Positions 24,905 through 36,090 of a stretch of DNA of 64,000 bases are shown one piece after another. Position 1 is the first letter of the stretch; each line of letters begins with the position of its first letter. The stretch spans positions 434,001-498,000 of the forward strand of contig NZ_JAJMLW010000003.1 of the NCBI RefSeq assembly GCF_022669055.1, in the 5' to 3' direction. The notes under the pieces were generated by a model. That model was not told the origin of the DNA. It ran no database searches and worked only from the letters and a program-made list of their open reading frames with translations. This DNA comes from Adlercreutzia faecimuris. Its GTDB lineage: Bacteria; Actinomycetota; Coriobacteriia; Coriobacteriales; Eggerthellaceae. The position numbers were made by a program, and so were the translations under genes.

Positions 24905-25558
24905 ATGAACCAGCCCAACGAGGGGCCGACGCTGGAAGGGGGGTTCCCGAGGAGGGGCATCGGGAATCCTCCCCACGTCGCCGAGGCTCCCAACGAGACC
25001 ATAGGCACGCTCCTGGATCGGCGCACCATACGCCGCTTCCGGGACGAGCCCGTCGACCCCGGGTGCCTGGACGTCATCGTCGACGTGGGCCTGCGCGCGG
25101 CCAACGCCGGCGGGTGCCAGGCACCGATCCTCCTCGTCAGCCAGGACGTGGAGGCGAACCTCATGCTCGGCCGCATATCGAACGACCTGTACGACGAGGG
25201 CTACTACCCCGTCTCGAGCGCGCAGCCCTCGACGGCGTGCATGGCCGGGCGGCGAAACGCCTTCTACGACGCGCCCGTGGTCATCACGGTGTTCACGCCG
25301 CGGGGCTGGTCCTACGCGCCGCTCGACGCGGGCGTGTGCGTCGCGAACATGATGAACGCCGCGTGGTCGCTCGGGCTGGGGAGCTGCGTCGTCAGCCGCG
25401 CCGCGCGCACCTTCGCGACCGACGCGGGCCGGGGCCTCGCGGCGCGCGCGGGCATCCCGGACGACTACGAGGCGCAGGTCCACCTGGTGGTCGGCGTGCC
25501 CGAGAGCACCGACGCCGACCCCCGCGGGCTCTACCCGAACCGGGTGGCGTGGCTATGA
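24905..25558 (+). CDS. Nitroreductase family protein
   Basis: A 217-residue protein with the RRTIRRFRDEPVDPGCL N-terminal block of FMN-binding nitroreductases, AANAGGCQ in the FMN site, and DAGVCVANMMNAAWSLGLGSC helix (residues 140-160). It is expected to be a homodimeric FMN enzyme using NAD(P)H on nitro, quinone or unsaturated substrates. About 35 extra residues precede the core; an internal start is possible but the chosen ATG lies 4 nt after the previous stop, in keeping with coupling. It overlaps the following sirtuin remnant by 4 nt (ATGA). Confidence 0.88.
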   Translation: MNQPNEGPTLEGGFPRRGIGNPPHVAEAPNETIGTLLDRRTIRRFRDEPVDPGCLDVIVDVGLRAANAGGCQAPILLVSQDVEANLMLGRISNDLYDEGYYPVSSAQPSTACMAGRRNAFYDAPVVITVFTPRGWSYAPLDAGVCVANMMNAAWSLGLGSCVVSRAARTFATDAGRGLAARAGIPDDYEAQVHLVVGVPESTDADPRGLYPNRVAWL

Positions 25559-25914
25559 GCACGGCGGGAAGGGCGGCGCGGCTGGCCGAGGAGCTCGCGG
25601 CGGCCGAGGCGGTCGTGGTCGGCGCCGGCGCGGGGCTCTCCACGGCGGCCGGCCTCGCCTACTCGGGCGAGCGCTTCGAGCGCTACTTCGGCGACTTCGC
25701 GCGGCGCCACGGCTTTTGCGACATGTACTCCGGCGGCTTCTTCCCCTACGAGACGCCGGGCGAGCGCTGGGCGTTCTGGAGCCGCTACGTCTGGATCAAC
25801 CGCTACGCGCCCATCCCGGGGAGCGCCTACGACGACCTGCGCGACCTCGTCGCGGGCAAGGACGCCTTCGTCATCACCACGAACGTGGACAACGGGGGGA
25901 CAACGGGGACGTAG
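25555..25914 (+). pseudogene. Truncated sirtuin (Sir2 family, class M-like), cut by REP sequence
   Basis: The 119-residue frame has an N-terminal sirtuin half: VVVGAGAGLSTAAGLAYSGE (NAD-binding GAG), DMYSGGFFPYETPGERWAFW, WSRYVWINRYAPIP and FVITTNVDN, where intact proteins read TTNVDHQF and go on for another 150 or so residues. Directly after TTNVD the frame enters a REP-type repeat (25887-25924) and stops at TAG inside it. The zinc-binding and C-terminal parts are missing from the region, since the next gene ends at 25960. The segment resembles class M sirtuins, linked elsewhere to protein ADP-ribosylation, though that subgroup call is moderate. Overlap with the nitroreductase stop suggests the gene was once functional and coupled. 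Confidence 0.75.
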
Positions 25915-25924
25915 GATGTTGTCC
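25887..25924 (+). repeat. REP-like repeat copy A
   Basis: Core GGACAAC (25898-25904), GGGGACGTAGGAT, GTTGTCC (25918-25924): a 7-bp inverted repeat around a conserved 13-nt centre, preceded by an extra GGACAACGGGG. The same core lies at the RAYT gene ends (copies B and C) and at copy D. It sits at the end of the truncated sirtuin and between convergent genes. Confidence 0.85.
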
Positions 25925-25959
25925 GCTCGCCGTTGTCCGCGCGCGCCGGGCGCCGGCGG

Positions 25960-31459: not shown

Positions 31460-31517
31460 TCCGCGCCGCCGGCAGGGGAGGGGGAAAGGGGCGCATCCTG
31501 GCCATGCTGGACGGGAC

Positions 31518-31575
31518 AACGGACAACGGGACAACGGGGACGAACGGGACAACGGGGACGTAGGCTATTGTCCCG
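31518..31575 (+). repeat. REP-like repeat copy B (left end of RAYT element)
   Basis: Two tandem GGGACAACGGGGACG units (31528-31542 and 31546-31560) lead into TAGGCTATTGTCCCG; the core hairpin GGGACAA (31546-31552) pairs with TTGTCCC (31568-31574). The last codons and the stop of the RAYT gene lie inside it. Confidence 0.85.
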
Positions 31576-32335
31576 CCTTCGCCCGCGCCTTCGCGACGAC
31601 GCTCTTCGACACGCCCGTCAGGCGCTCGACCTGCCTCACCGAGAGCCCCGCCGCCTTGAGCCGGCAGAGGGCCTCGTCGCGCCGTTCCCTAGGGAGGGCG
31701 GCCACCTCCTCGACGCGAGTCGGCGCGAGCAGCAGGCGCGCGGCTTCCAGCGCGCTGTCGTCGTCCAGCACCCGACGTCCGCGGTTCTCGTCTACGCAGG
31801 GCGCGGATGCGTCACTTGCCTCATGGAAGCGCTTGAATCCCGAGACGCCCCCGAGCATCTCGAGCACGAGAGAGGTGTCGGCCACGGCGGGCTCGCCTGC
31901 ATACTCGCGGTAGCTGCTCCAGGGATAGGACGCCGCGGCGCCGATGCCGGCCTTCTCCGGATTCTGGTGGATGTAGCGGATTACGGTCAGGAGGTACTCG
32001 TCCGTATCCACCGGCTCGCTCTTGAACCTGCCCTGCATGAGGTGGCCGACCCTCCCGTGCCTCTTGTTGAAGCGGAGCGCGTAGGCCGAGTTGACGAGGC
32101 GCATGGACTCCGACAGGTCGGCGAGTCCCATCTTCAGCAGAAGATGTGTATGGTTGCCCATGAGGCACCAGGCGAGGACGGATCCGCCGTGGCCCTCGAC
32201 CTCCCGTTGGAGCAGGTCGAGATAGCACTGGCGGTCGCCGTCGTCCTCGAAGATGAGCTGGCGGCCGACCCCGCGCGACACGACATGGTAGATTCCCGCC
32301 TCGCTCTCACGGCGCGATCTCGACGTCCTGACCAT
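31565..32335 (-). CDS. REP-associated tyrosine transposase (RAYT, Y1_Tnp family)
   Basis: A 256-residue HUH-type transposase. Residues 1-25 hold SEAGIYHVVSRG, the usual RAYT opening; the metal-binding pair is in MGNHTHLLL (His62, His64); QGRFKSE (101-107) and RYIHQNP with candidate catalytic Tyr121 follow. A C-terminal helix-turn-helix-like unit (LSVRQVERLTGVSKSVVAKA) ends two residues before the stop. Start at 32335 was preferred because GGGAGGGACG precedes it and family proteins begin about here; an extension to 32419 would read into the right-end repeat. RAYTs nick and join single-stranded REP DNA and are thought to spread REP sequences. Confidence 0.93.
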   Translation of the reverse strand: MVRTSRSRRESEAGIYHVVSRGVGRQLIFEDDGDRQCYLDLLQREVEGHGGSVLAWCLMGNHTHLLLKMGLADLSESMRLVNSAYALRFNKRHGRVGHLMQGRFKSEPVDTDEYLLTVIRYIHQNPEKAGIGAAASYPWSSYREYAGEPAVADTSLVLEMLGGVSGFKRFHEASDASAPCVDENRGRRVLDDDSALEAARLLLAPTRVEEVAALPRERRDEALCRLKAAGLSVRQVERLTGVSKSVVAKARAKAGQ

Positions 32336-32394
32336 CGTCCCTCCCATCGCTCGATTGCCAAGGAGAGGCGAGCATACCATTGCGCCGCTAGTGA

Positions 32395-32466
32395 GGACAA
32401 CATCCAGCGAGGACAACACCCTACGTCCCCGTTGTCCCGTTCGTCCCCGTTGTCCCGTTGTCCGTT
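32395..32466 (-). repeat. REP-like repeat copy C (right end of RAYT element)
   Basis: GAGGACAACATCC (32393-32405) is followed by GGACAACACCCTACGTCCCC and GTTGTCC in the core hairpin, then CGTTCGTCCCCGTTGTCCC. The stretch 32421-32466 is an exact inverse copy of 31518-31563. Confidence 0.85.
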
Positions 32467-33979: not shown

Positions 33980-34053
33980 GCGCAGCGCCCGCCCGCCCCC
34001 GGCGGGAAAGCCGCCCGGCGCCCCGGCGCCCCGGGCCCCGGCACGCGGGCGCG

Positions 34054-34080
34054 GGACAACATCCTACGTCCCCGTTGTCC
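34054..34080 (-). repeat. REP-like repeat copy D
   Basis: GGACAAC (34054-34060), ATCCTACGTCCCC, GTTGTCC (34074-34080), extended outside by GGGCGC/GCGCCC. It lies 22 nt after the PucR-type gene's stop and upstream of tRNA-Arg, and could end the regulator transcript. Confidence 0.85.
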
Positions 34081-34102
34081 GCGCCCGCGCGCGGCGGGCG
34101 CG

Positions 34103-35683
34103 CTACTCGGTCAGCAGGTAGAGCACGCGCAGGTACATCCGCAGGTCGGGGTCGTCCAGGCTGCCGCCCACGAGCCGCCGTATCTTCTCCAGGCGGTAGG
34201 TCACTGTGTTGCGGTGCATGTGCATGAGGTCGCACACCACGTTGACGCGCCCCTCGCTGTGCAGGTAGACGCGCAGGATCTCCAGGTCGTTGGTGCCGCG
34301 CTCCCGATCGGCGGCGCGCAGGGCGGAGAGCGGGTTGGGGGATGCCAGGAGCCGCGCCACGAACTTCTCGGACCGGGCGAAGGGGTCGGTGGCGAAGTAG
34401 GGGAAGTACCGGCGGAAGCGGAACACGTCCTCGGTGCCCGTCCCCGGCTCGTCGAAGGCCAGGTAGCGCCGCGACTTGCGCCGCCCGTACTTGAGCGCGA
34501 TGCGCGCCTTCTCCAGCGCCAGCGCCGCCTCGTCGAGCCGCTCGAACTTCTCGGAGACGCCCACTTCCACCCGCATGCGGTGCGCCAGGCTGAACACCTC
34601 TTCCTCCATCGCGGCGATGCGCCCGCGCCGCTCGTCGGGCGCGCACAGGAGCACGGCCACGCGCTGGCCGTTGATGGCCACCTTGCACGACGGCTCGCTC
34701 TCGAGCACCTTCTTGGCGAAGTAGTTGGGCGACCCGGCGCGCCAGGTGTTGTCGGACACGCACAGCTCGAACAGCCCCGTGAGCGGCAGCCCGTGCAGCT
34801 TGGCGTGCTCGGCCAGCTGGGGCTCGTCGTAGACGTTGCCGGTCAGGAGCTCGCGCAGGAAGTAGGAGTAGCTCTGCTCGAGCGGGTTCTCCAGGCGCCA
34901 GTGGCGCTCCAGGCACGCCTCCACCTTCTTGGCCAGCAGGTTGAACAGGAACAGCTGCGAGGTGGATATCTCGGAGGGCGACACCATGACCAGGTGGGCG
35001 GCGTAGCTGCCGCGCTGGTGGATGACGCGGTCGAGGGTGGGGTAGGGGCACAGCGCCGTGGGCGCGTTGTGCACGGCCGTCCACTCCTGGTGCTCCCAGG
35101 TGCGCATGAGCCCGTGCTCGCGCGCCACCCGGATGGTGTCGGGGCTGTAGCAGCCGTTCTTGACCAGGTAGGCGGTGCGCTCGTCGATCGGCGCTATGTT
35201 GGGCGTGTGGGCGATGTAGGAGAACGTGGAGTCGGACAGCGCCACGAAGCACCCGAGCACCGGCTCGGAGGCCTTGAGCAGGTCCTGGTTGATGCAGCCC
35301 TCTTCCAGCATGGCGCTCATCTGGTCGTTCCACTGGACGACGCGCATGAGGTGGCGCTGGACCCGGTCGGCCAGCAGCTCGGGGGAAAGGGCGCTGCGGA
35401 CGTAGACGTCGTCGTTGCCGGCGGCGAGCACCTCGGGCACCGGGTCGCGCGGGCCCAAGACCACCACGCGCCGGCCGGGGGTGCCGGCCTCGCGCAGCTC
35501 GGCGAGGGCGCGCGGGCCCATGAAGCGCAGGGTGTCGTCCTCGCCCTCCGCGACGGCGGGCGCCTCCTGGTCGAGGAAGGCGGACACCCACGAGAACAGG
35601 GCGCGGGGATGCTGGGGCTCCTTGACCACGGTGATGCCCTGGTCGAGGAAGTATCCCGTGAGCATATCGAGGGGGAACTGCAT
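34103..35683 (-). CDS. PucR/CdaR-type transcriptional regulator
   Basis: A 526-residue protein whose last 60 residues (ILRVYLHSEGRVNVVCDLMHMHRNTVTYRLEKIRRL) form the PucR C-terminal helix-turn-helix with the HRNTVTYRL signature. The middle is a GGDEF-like/CdaR domain and the N-terminus is a variable sensory unit. Start 35683 was chosen because AAAGGATG lies 8 nt upstream; an in-frame ATG at 35692 is an alternative. It is divergent from arcA across a 407-bp gap, so it probably regulates the arginine deiminase operon. The effector, perhaps arginine or a pathway intermediate, is inference. Confidence 0.88.
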   Translation of the reverse strand: MQFPLDMLTGYFLDQGITVVKEPQHPRALFSWVSAFLDQEAPAVAEGEDDTLRFMGPRALAELREAGTPGRRVVVLGPRDPVPEVLAAGNDDVYVRSALSPELLADRVQRHLMRVVQWNDQMSAMLEEGCINQDLLKASEPVLGCFVALSDSTFSYIAHTPNIAPIDERTAYLVKNGCYSPDTIRVAREHGLMRTWEHQEWTAVHNAPTALCPYPTLDRVIHQRGSYAAHLVMVSPSEISTSQLFLFNLLAKKVEACLERHWRLENPLEQSYSYFLRELLTGNVYDEPQLAEHAKLHGLPLTGLFELCVSDNTWRAGSPNYFAKKVLESEPSCKVAINGQRVAVLLCAPDERRGRIAAMEEEVFSLAHRMRVEVGVSEKFERLDEAALALEKARIALKYGRRKSRRYLAFDEPGTGTEDVFRFRRYFPYFATDPFARSEKFVARLLASPNPLSALRAADRERGTNDLEILRVYLHSEGRVNVVCDLMHMHRNTVTYRLEKIRRLVGGSLDDPDLRMYLRVLYLLTE

Positions 35684-36090
35684 GGGCAACATCCTTTCGC
35701 CTTCGTTTACCAACCGTTGACGAATCTTTTCCTCCATGAGGGGGAGGAGGAATGATATGGCAATTATACACAAATGATCTTTTAAGTGTTGTTCACCATG
35801 CACATATCTAATGGCCGATGGGCCCTCTAGAATGGGCGGCACAAGGCCGAGGGGCCGCACCCGTGGCAAGCACCGGCGAACCGCCGCCCGCACCCTGCGA
35901 CCTCCCGCCTCCGCCCGGTAACGCGGCGGTGTCGCGGGAGTTCCAAGTTGTCAAGGCAATGATCGCCGTGATTGTCCCGATCACCCTCCGGTGTCATCGT
36001 AGGACGTGCTGAGGCGCGGCCGCGGGACGCCGGGGCGCGGCGCCGAGGCGACAAGGAAACCCACAAGACACATGGATAGGAGGGCTCTTT
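35684..36090. promoter_or_regulatory. Divergent control region of regulator gene and arcA
   Basis: 407 bp without a gene. On the minus strand a TATAAT (35768-35763) serves the regulator. On the plus strand TAGAAT (35828-35833) would give arcA a 250-nt leader. A short dyad, GTGAT-TGTCCCG-ATCAC, lies near 35969-35985. The left 100 bp are clearly AT-rich, as expected of promoters. The arcA ribosome site is AGGAGGGC. Confidence 0.55.

Follow-up and report, generated by a model that had tools for sequence, protein, structure and literature searches.

The window, by which we mean the whole 64-kb stretch of DNA analysed here, carries the only Y1_Tnp gene of a 2.79-Mb genome, and this gene is boxed by inverted, GC-rich arms and accompanied in the window by further copies of a short hairpin unit (Table 1). 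An inverted-repeat comparison across the window delimited the arms as 31518-31573 and 32411-32466, each of 56 nt and 96% complementary to one another; read by eye, the perfect stretch within them extends over 31518-31564 / 32420-32466. The exact inverse copies that a preliminary description had placed around the gene are therefore real, but their perfect part measures 47 bp rather than 46 bp. Likewise, the stop codon of the gene (TAG, at 31565-31567 of the + strand), which had been assigned to the left copy, lies 1 nt beyond the perfect arm, though still within the 56-nt arm. The ATG occupies 32335-32333, with GGGAGG just upstream.

Table 1. Coordinates (window positions) of the element and of the dispersed repeat units in its vicinity.
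Feature	Position	Strand	Remarks
RAYT/TIRYT gene, Y1_Tnp HUH domain and C-terminal helix-turn-helix (HTH)	31565..32335	-	256 aa from ATG
Left terminal inverted repeat (TIR)	31513..31573	+	truncated 5' half-units followed by a complete hairpin unit, 31546-31573 (GGGACAACGGGGACGTAGGCTATTGTCC); includes the RAYT stop codon
Right TIR	32411..32466	-	inverse copy of left TIR; ~75 bp upstream of the RAYT start codon
Partial extra 3' half-unit	32389..32406	-	region of + strand TAGTGAGGACAACATCCA, on inner side of right TIR
Dispersed unit	25888..25938	+	full unit 25897-25923 plus truncated copies
Dispersed full unit	34053..34081	-	~20 bp beyond the end of a 596-aa ORF, 34103-35893 (-)

The identification of the gene product as a RAYT-type HUH/Y1 protein, already made in the preliminary description, was borne out by profile matches to Pfam Y1_Tnp (7.5e-11) and to NCBIfam REP_Tyr_transpos (NF047646; 7.3e-16, with a score of 58.4 bits that falls below the curated cut-off of 80). 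In its 259-aa translation the catalytic H-x-H is present as NHTH (H65 and H67), and Y124 lies within the motif YIHQNP. Across 48 homologs H65, H67, N64 and P129 are invariant, Y124 is conserved in at least 90%, and the NP of the Y---NP motif is nearly invariant and is followed by an HTH-like C-terminal segment. The C-terminus of the window protein matches HTH_3 and HTH_31 weakly (E about 0.04, below the cut-off), and in the AlphaFold model (pLDDT 89.9) it forms helices at 219-231, 236-243 and 247-252. A phmmer search of the protein against the PDB gave no match; with Foldseek the best PDB fold match was 4er8, in which the E. coli RAYT is bound to a REP hairpin (E 1.9e-7; identity 17% over the aligned part). 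The W that is conserved in GTAG-type RAYTs, located by means of the residue list in PMC6006769, is replaced by F in most homologs and by M in the window protein.

The repeat unit has the form GGGACAAC-GGGGACGTAGGAT-GTTGTCCC, a hairpin in which 8 bp of stem enclose an asymmetric loop of 13 nt (folding z=-2.9); as read from the dispersed copies, this functional-looking unit is longer than the 15-mer considered previously. Its repeat word, GGACAAC ... GTTGTCC, corresponds to no known sequence that we recognise, and it resembles the published TIRtron class. Dispersed copies had been claimed before, and we found them both within the window and across the genome. The 14-mer GGACAACGGGGACG has 6 exact copies in the window and 8 with up to 2 mismatches, against 1.3 expected and a maximum of 4 in 100 shuffles; genome-wide there are 17 exact copies and 27 with one mismatch, the reversed control giving 2. 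About 15-20 copies of the repeat unit lie elsewhere in the genome, frequently directly after stop codons, and occur singly, in tandem (G000:C4:77711-77840, G000:C1:797162-797280) or as inverted pairs, of which there are only two (G000:C1:797245/797318 and G000:C4:215618/215690). A second dispersed motif, GAGATCGCxxxTTTTTGTCC, stands beside TIR units in direct and inverted copies (around positions 1500-1760 of G000:C1:1185012-1188025 and 1380-1460 of G000:C3:81400-84413).

Tandem doubling of the repeat had been described as confined to the element ends. This is wrong genome-wide: dispersed copies are doubled at G000:C3:82883-82913, at G000:C4:77711-77742 and partly at window 25888-25911, and also in relatives. 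The argument from end-specific doubling fails because truncated 5' half-units precede full units at dispersed sites and element ends alike. A precise cleavage point after GGGGACG, suggested by the look of several doubled TIRs, was likewise rejected, and we deduce no cut site, because in an unbiased count the truncation points of the half-units are spread from after GGACAACG to after GGGGACGG, over lengths of 8-15. Such a spread fits slippage as well as enzymology.

A sirtuin-like gene (window 25555-25914, +) is truncated at TTNVD exactly at the start of a TIR unit. The dispersed copy at 25888-25923 starts where the homology of this ORF stops, all relatives align at most to residue 112-113 (TTNVD) of its 119-aa frame, and the in-frame TAG that ends the frame is supplied by the unit. 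Relatives have open frames of ~290-415 aa; ~170 C-terminal residues are missing from the window gene, and the rest of the gene is absent from the window. Behind the truncation lies either an insertion accompanied by a deletion or a breakpoint left by recombination.

For a comparison across the wider family we assembled 110 loci, counting that of the window, by drawing on 138 family genomes and scanning public ones; they span Coriobacteriia, Bacilli, Clostridia and others, and 109 had usable flanks. A TIR was scored where an inverted repeat across the gene reached at least 17, the control being left flanks paired with right flanks from other loci. By this measure 73 of the 109 loci have an inverted TIR of their own, as against 1.3% of the mismatched flank pairs, the few positives among which are mostly close relatives. 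Among hairpin-bearing TIRs, of which 57 are distinct, the motif GGG[AT]C is present in 40 and lacking in the other 17, and GGG[AT]C[AG]?G is found in 36; both GGGGACAG and GGGGACGG occur as cores in homologs. The stems vary widely between RAYTs (TGACAAG, TGAACA, CGTGAAA, CCCAAA and TGTCCC, among others), and TIR distance correlates with protein distance (Mantel r=0.30, p=0.0005, in a test that shared ancestry inflates). The metagenome-assembled genome RUG12647 has three RAYT paralogs with three different TIRs, two of these RAYT/TIR pairs being common to RUG12446; therefore, the TIR follows the enzyme and not the genome. A flanking TIR was not found at several Bacillus-group homologs or at many from Collinsella (L131-L133, L136, L138, L140-L143, L145, L146, L149, L151, L152), and the TIR-less Collinsella RAYTs are possibly a domesticated sub-branch. 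The RAYT of G066, at 138621-139385, has the same position as the match in Gordonibacter pamelaeae 7-10-1-b, and on this ground the family of the window was taken as Eggerthellaceae. The FetB-like flanking gene is absent from the same-genus genomes G058-G060.

Copy number was surveyed by counting matches to GGACAACGGGGACGTAG with at most 2 mismatches in the 137 other Eggerthellaceae genomes. Most have 0-3. The two richest genomes, G101 (57 copies) and G069 (28 copies), also encode the two closest RAYTs (59% and 53% identity, respectively), a pairing with a chance probability of about 1 in 9,300. There are exceptions: G137 (15 copies) and G083 (13) yielded no TIRYT, and G112 (about 10) has a RAYT that is 37% identical and whose flanks are without the unit. 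Another stem type, TGACAAGGGGACAGGTCANTTGTCA, is present in 118 copies in G030 (85% complete) and 22 in G096 (99% complete), and no Y1_Tnp gene was found in either genome. Copy number is thus associated with the cognate RAYT, though not strictly. The relation between repeat number and RAYT genes in relatives, which the preliminary description had made a test of its reading, holds for the cognate enzyme and is imperfect in that some genomes have repeats without a RAYT, plausibly because the RAYT was lost or falls in a gap of a draft assembly. Many copies in G030, G101, G069 and G130 form REPIN-like inverted dimers of conserved spacing, ~42-66 bp from start to start. Many of the 118 copies of TGACAAGGGGACAGGTCATTTGTCA in G030 are arranged in inverted dimers of ~89 bp whose spacer is conserved. 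At G130:C4:8230-9500 the RAYT is bordered left and right by a complete inverted TIR dimer, and the spacers of the two dimers are near reverse complements.

On these grounds the element is very probably a TIRtron, that is, a single-copy, HTH-bearing RAYT (TIRYT, subclass 2.1) whose inverted hairpin TIRs are its cognate substrate. Each TIR may be understood as an imperfect palindrome in which a lineage-specific stem, here GGGACAAC/GTTGTCCC, encloses an asymmetric loop, with a core GGGGAC(A/G) that appears to be widely common to the family. By analogy with E. coli TnpA-REP, which nicks and rejoins REPs (PMC8266576), the HUH/Tyr domain would most likely nick the TIR hairpin in its single-stranded form and rejoin it, presumably with a preference for one strand, and the HTH domain may help in recognising the repeat or a partner. 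The short TIR units would spread in trans by transposition, as singles, tandems or REPIN-like inverted dimers, settling mostly in intergenic regions. The earlier proposal that the ends are the enzyme's own substrate is thus most likely correct, to judge from the association of TIRs with homologous genes and from the link between copy number and cognate enzyme.

Of the other readings, one takes the locus for a classical REPtron of the Gammaproteobacterial kind, in which a TnpA-REP is paired with GTAG-footed REPs. GTAG is indeed present in the unit (within GGGGACGTAGGAT), the nearest fold is that of E. coli TnpA-REP and the dimers are REPIN-like; nevertheless, the repeat hairpin has no GT[AG]G as its 5' foot, the GTAG being in the loop, the units of relatives have GGAG or CAT, F or M stands where GTAG-type RAYTs have W, and the protein bears an extra HTH domain, all of which makes this reading extremely improbable. 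The description of the ends as REPs falls with it, since neither GTAG nor GTGG forms a foot on the 5' side of the hairpin, and membership of the GTAG or CGTC REPs was rejected with the tags lying away from the hairpin foot. The family-level RAYT label is right and the REP sub-class label wrong; TIRtron/TIRYT of TnpA-Y1 subclass 2.1 is a better classification for it than classical GTAG-REP RAYT.

It is also very unlikely that we are dealing with a self-mobile IS200/IS605-like insertion sequence that has the 56-bp arms as its ends and the dispersed units as its decayed remnants (MITEs), since the genome has one copy of the gene, its motifs are class-2 Y---NP and not the Y---Q of IS200, and its homologs in the family are divergent and mostly one or few per genome instead of near-identical and multicopy. 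What recommends this possibility is that inverted ends box the gene, that dispersed inverted dimers resemble internally deleted elements and that one unit sits at a gene-truncation point. The repeats might, alternatively, be hairpins with a regulatory or terminator role that have spread through recombination and slippage during replication, with a RAYT that was domesticated otherwise and arms that are tolerated. Units lying directly after stop codons, truncated tandem half-units with the broad spread of end-points that slippage would give, and repeat-rich genomes without a RAYT all agree with this; the TIRs, however, differ from one RAYT lineage to the next and vary together with the RAYT, and copy number tracks the cognate RAYT, so that we judge it unlikely.

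The TIRtron interpretation may be extended into a broader proposal, for and against which we see the balance as even: that subclass 2.1 RAYTs each read a private hairpin, comprising a lineage-specific stem that serves as an 'address' and the shared core GGGGAC(A/G), that stem and enzyme coevolve, and that in Coriobacteriia these enzymes drive REPIN-like populations of up to ~118 copies. If true, the stem-recognition code could be readable from natural variation. The ~57 distinct natural RAYT/TIR pairs speak to a gap left in 2018, namely, whether the HTH-RAYT subclass has cognate repeats at all, and would make it possible to dissect the specificity of a single-strand HUH nuclease. The data also document populations of REPIN-like repeats in an actinobacterial family of the gut, together with one likely gene truncation at a repeat.

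TIRtrons were defined as RAYT-like genes between terminal inverted repeats whose core, GGGGWSAS, is GGGG-rich; their TIRs often overlap the 3' end of the gene, and some TIR families are dispersed as singles, dimers or groups (Di Nocera 2013, PMC3733652). The present element agrees in having a RAYT-like Y1 gene between inverted repeats that bear no relation to GTAG REPs, in the conserved catalytic HUH and Tyr and in the dispersal of its TIR copies through the genome. It departs in its core, GGGGACG(T), which has G as the 7th base instead of the A of GGGGWSAS, although the same study also lists TIRs unrelated to that core, which is accordingly not defining; it departs further in the link between copy number and cognate enzyme, for which no obvious correlation was seen there. 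The text of PMC3733652 does not name Eggerthella, Slackia or 'Actinobacteria', and we found no earlier report of a TIRtron in Eggerthellaceae. Subclass 2.1 (Quentin 2018, PMC6006769; Bertels group 1), equated by its authors with the TIRYTs of PMC3733652, shares with our protein the class-2 Y---NP motif (YIHQNP), FQ in place of WQ, a length of ~256 aa and a C-terminal HTH-like segment; the HUH motif here is NHTH rather than NHVH or NH[YF]H, and most close homologs have hairpin TIRs, whereas that study detected nothing REP-like in the neighbourhood of subclass 2.1 and asked for further analysis. With E. coli TnpA-REP (4er8) the element shares the HUH/Tyr fold and hairpin repeats that flank the gene and are dispersed, but it has neither the GTAG foot nor the bulged stem and adds an HTH. 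The dispersed units of relatives recall REPINs (Bertels and Rainey 2011, PMC3116915) in their inverted dimers of conserved spacing, though built of TIR units instead of GTAG REPs, and the units in the window's genome are mostly single or tandem. In being single-copy the gene resembles other class-2 TnpA-Y1 genes and differs from IS200/IS605. The element thus joins an already known but poorly studied kind, the TIRtrons, and brings to it a family-wide data set.
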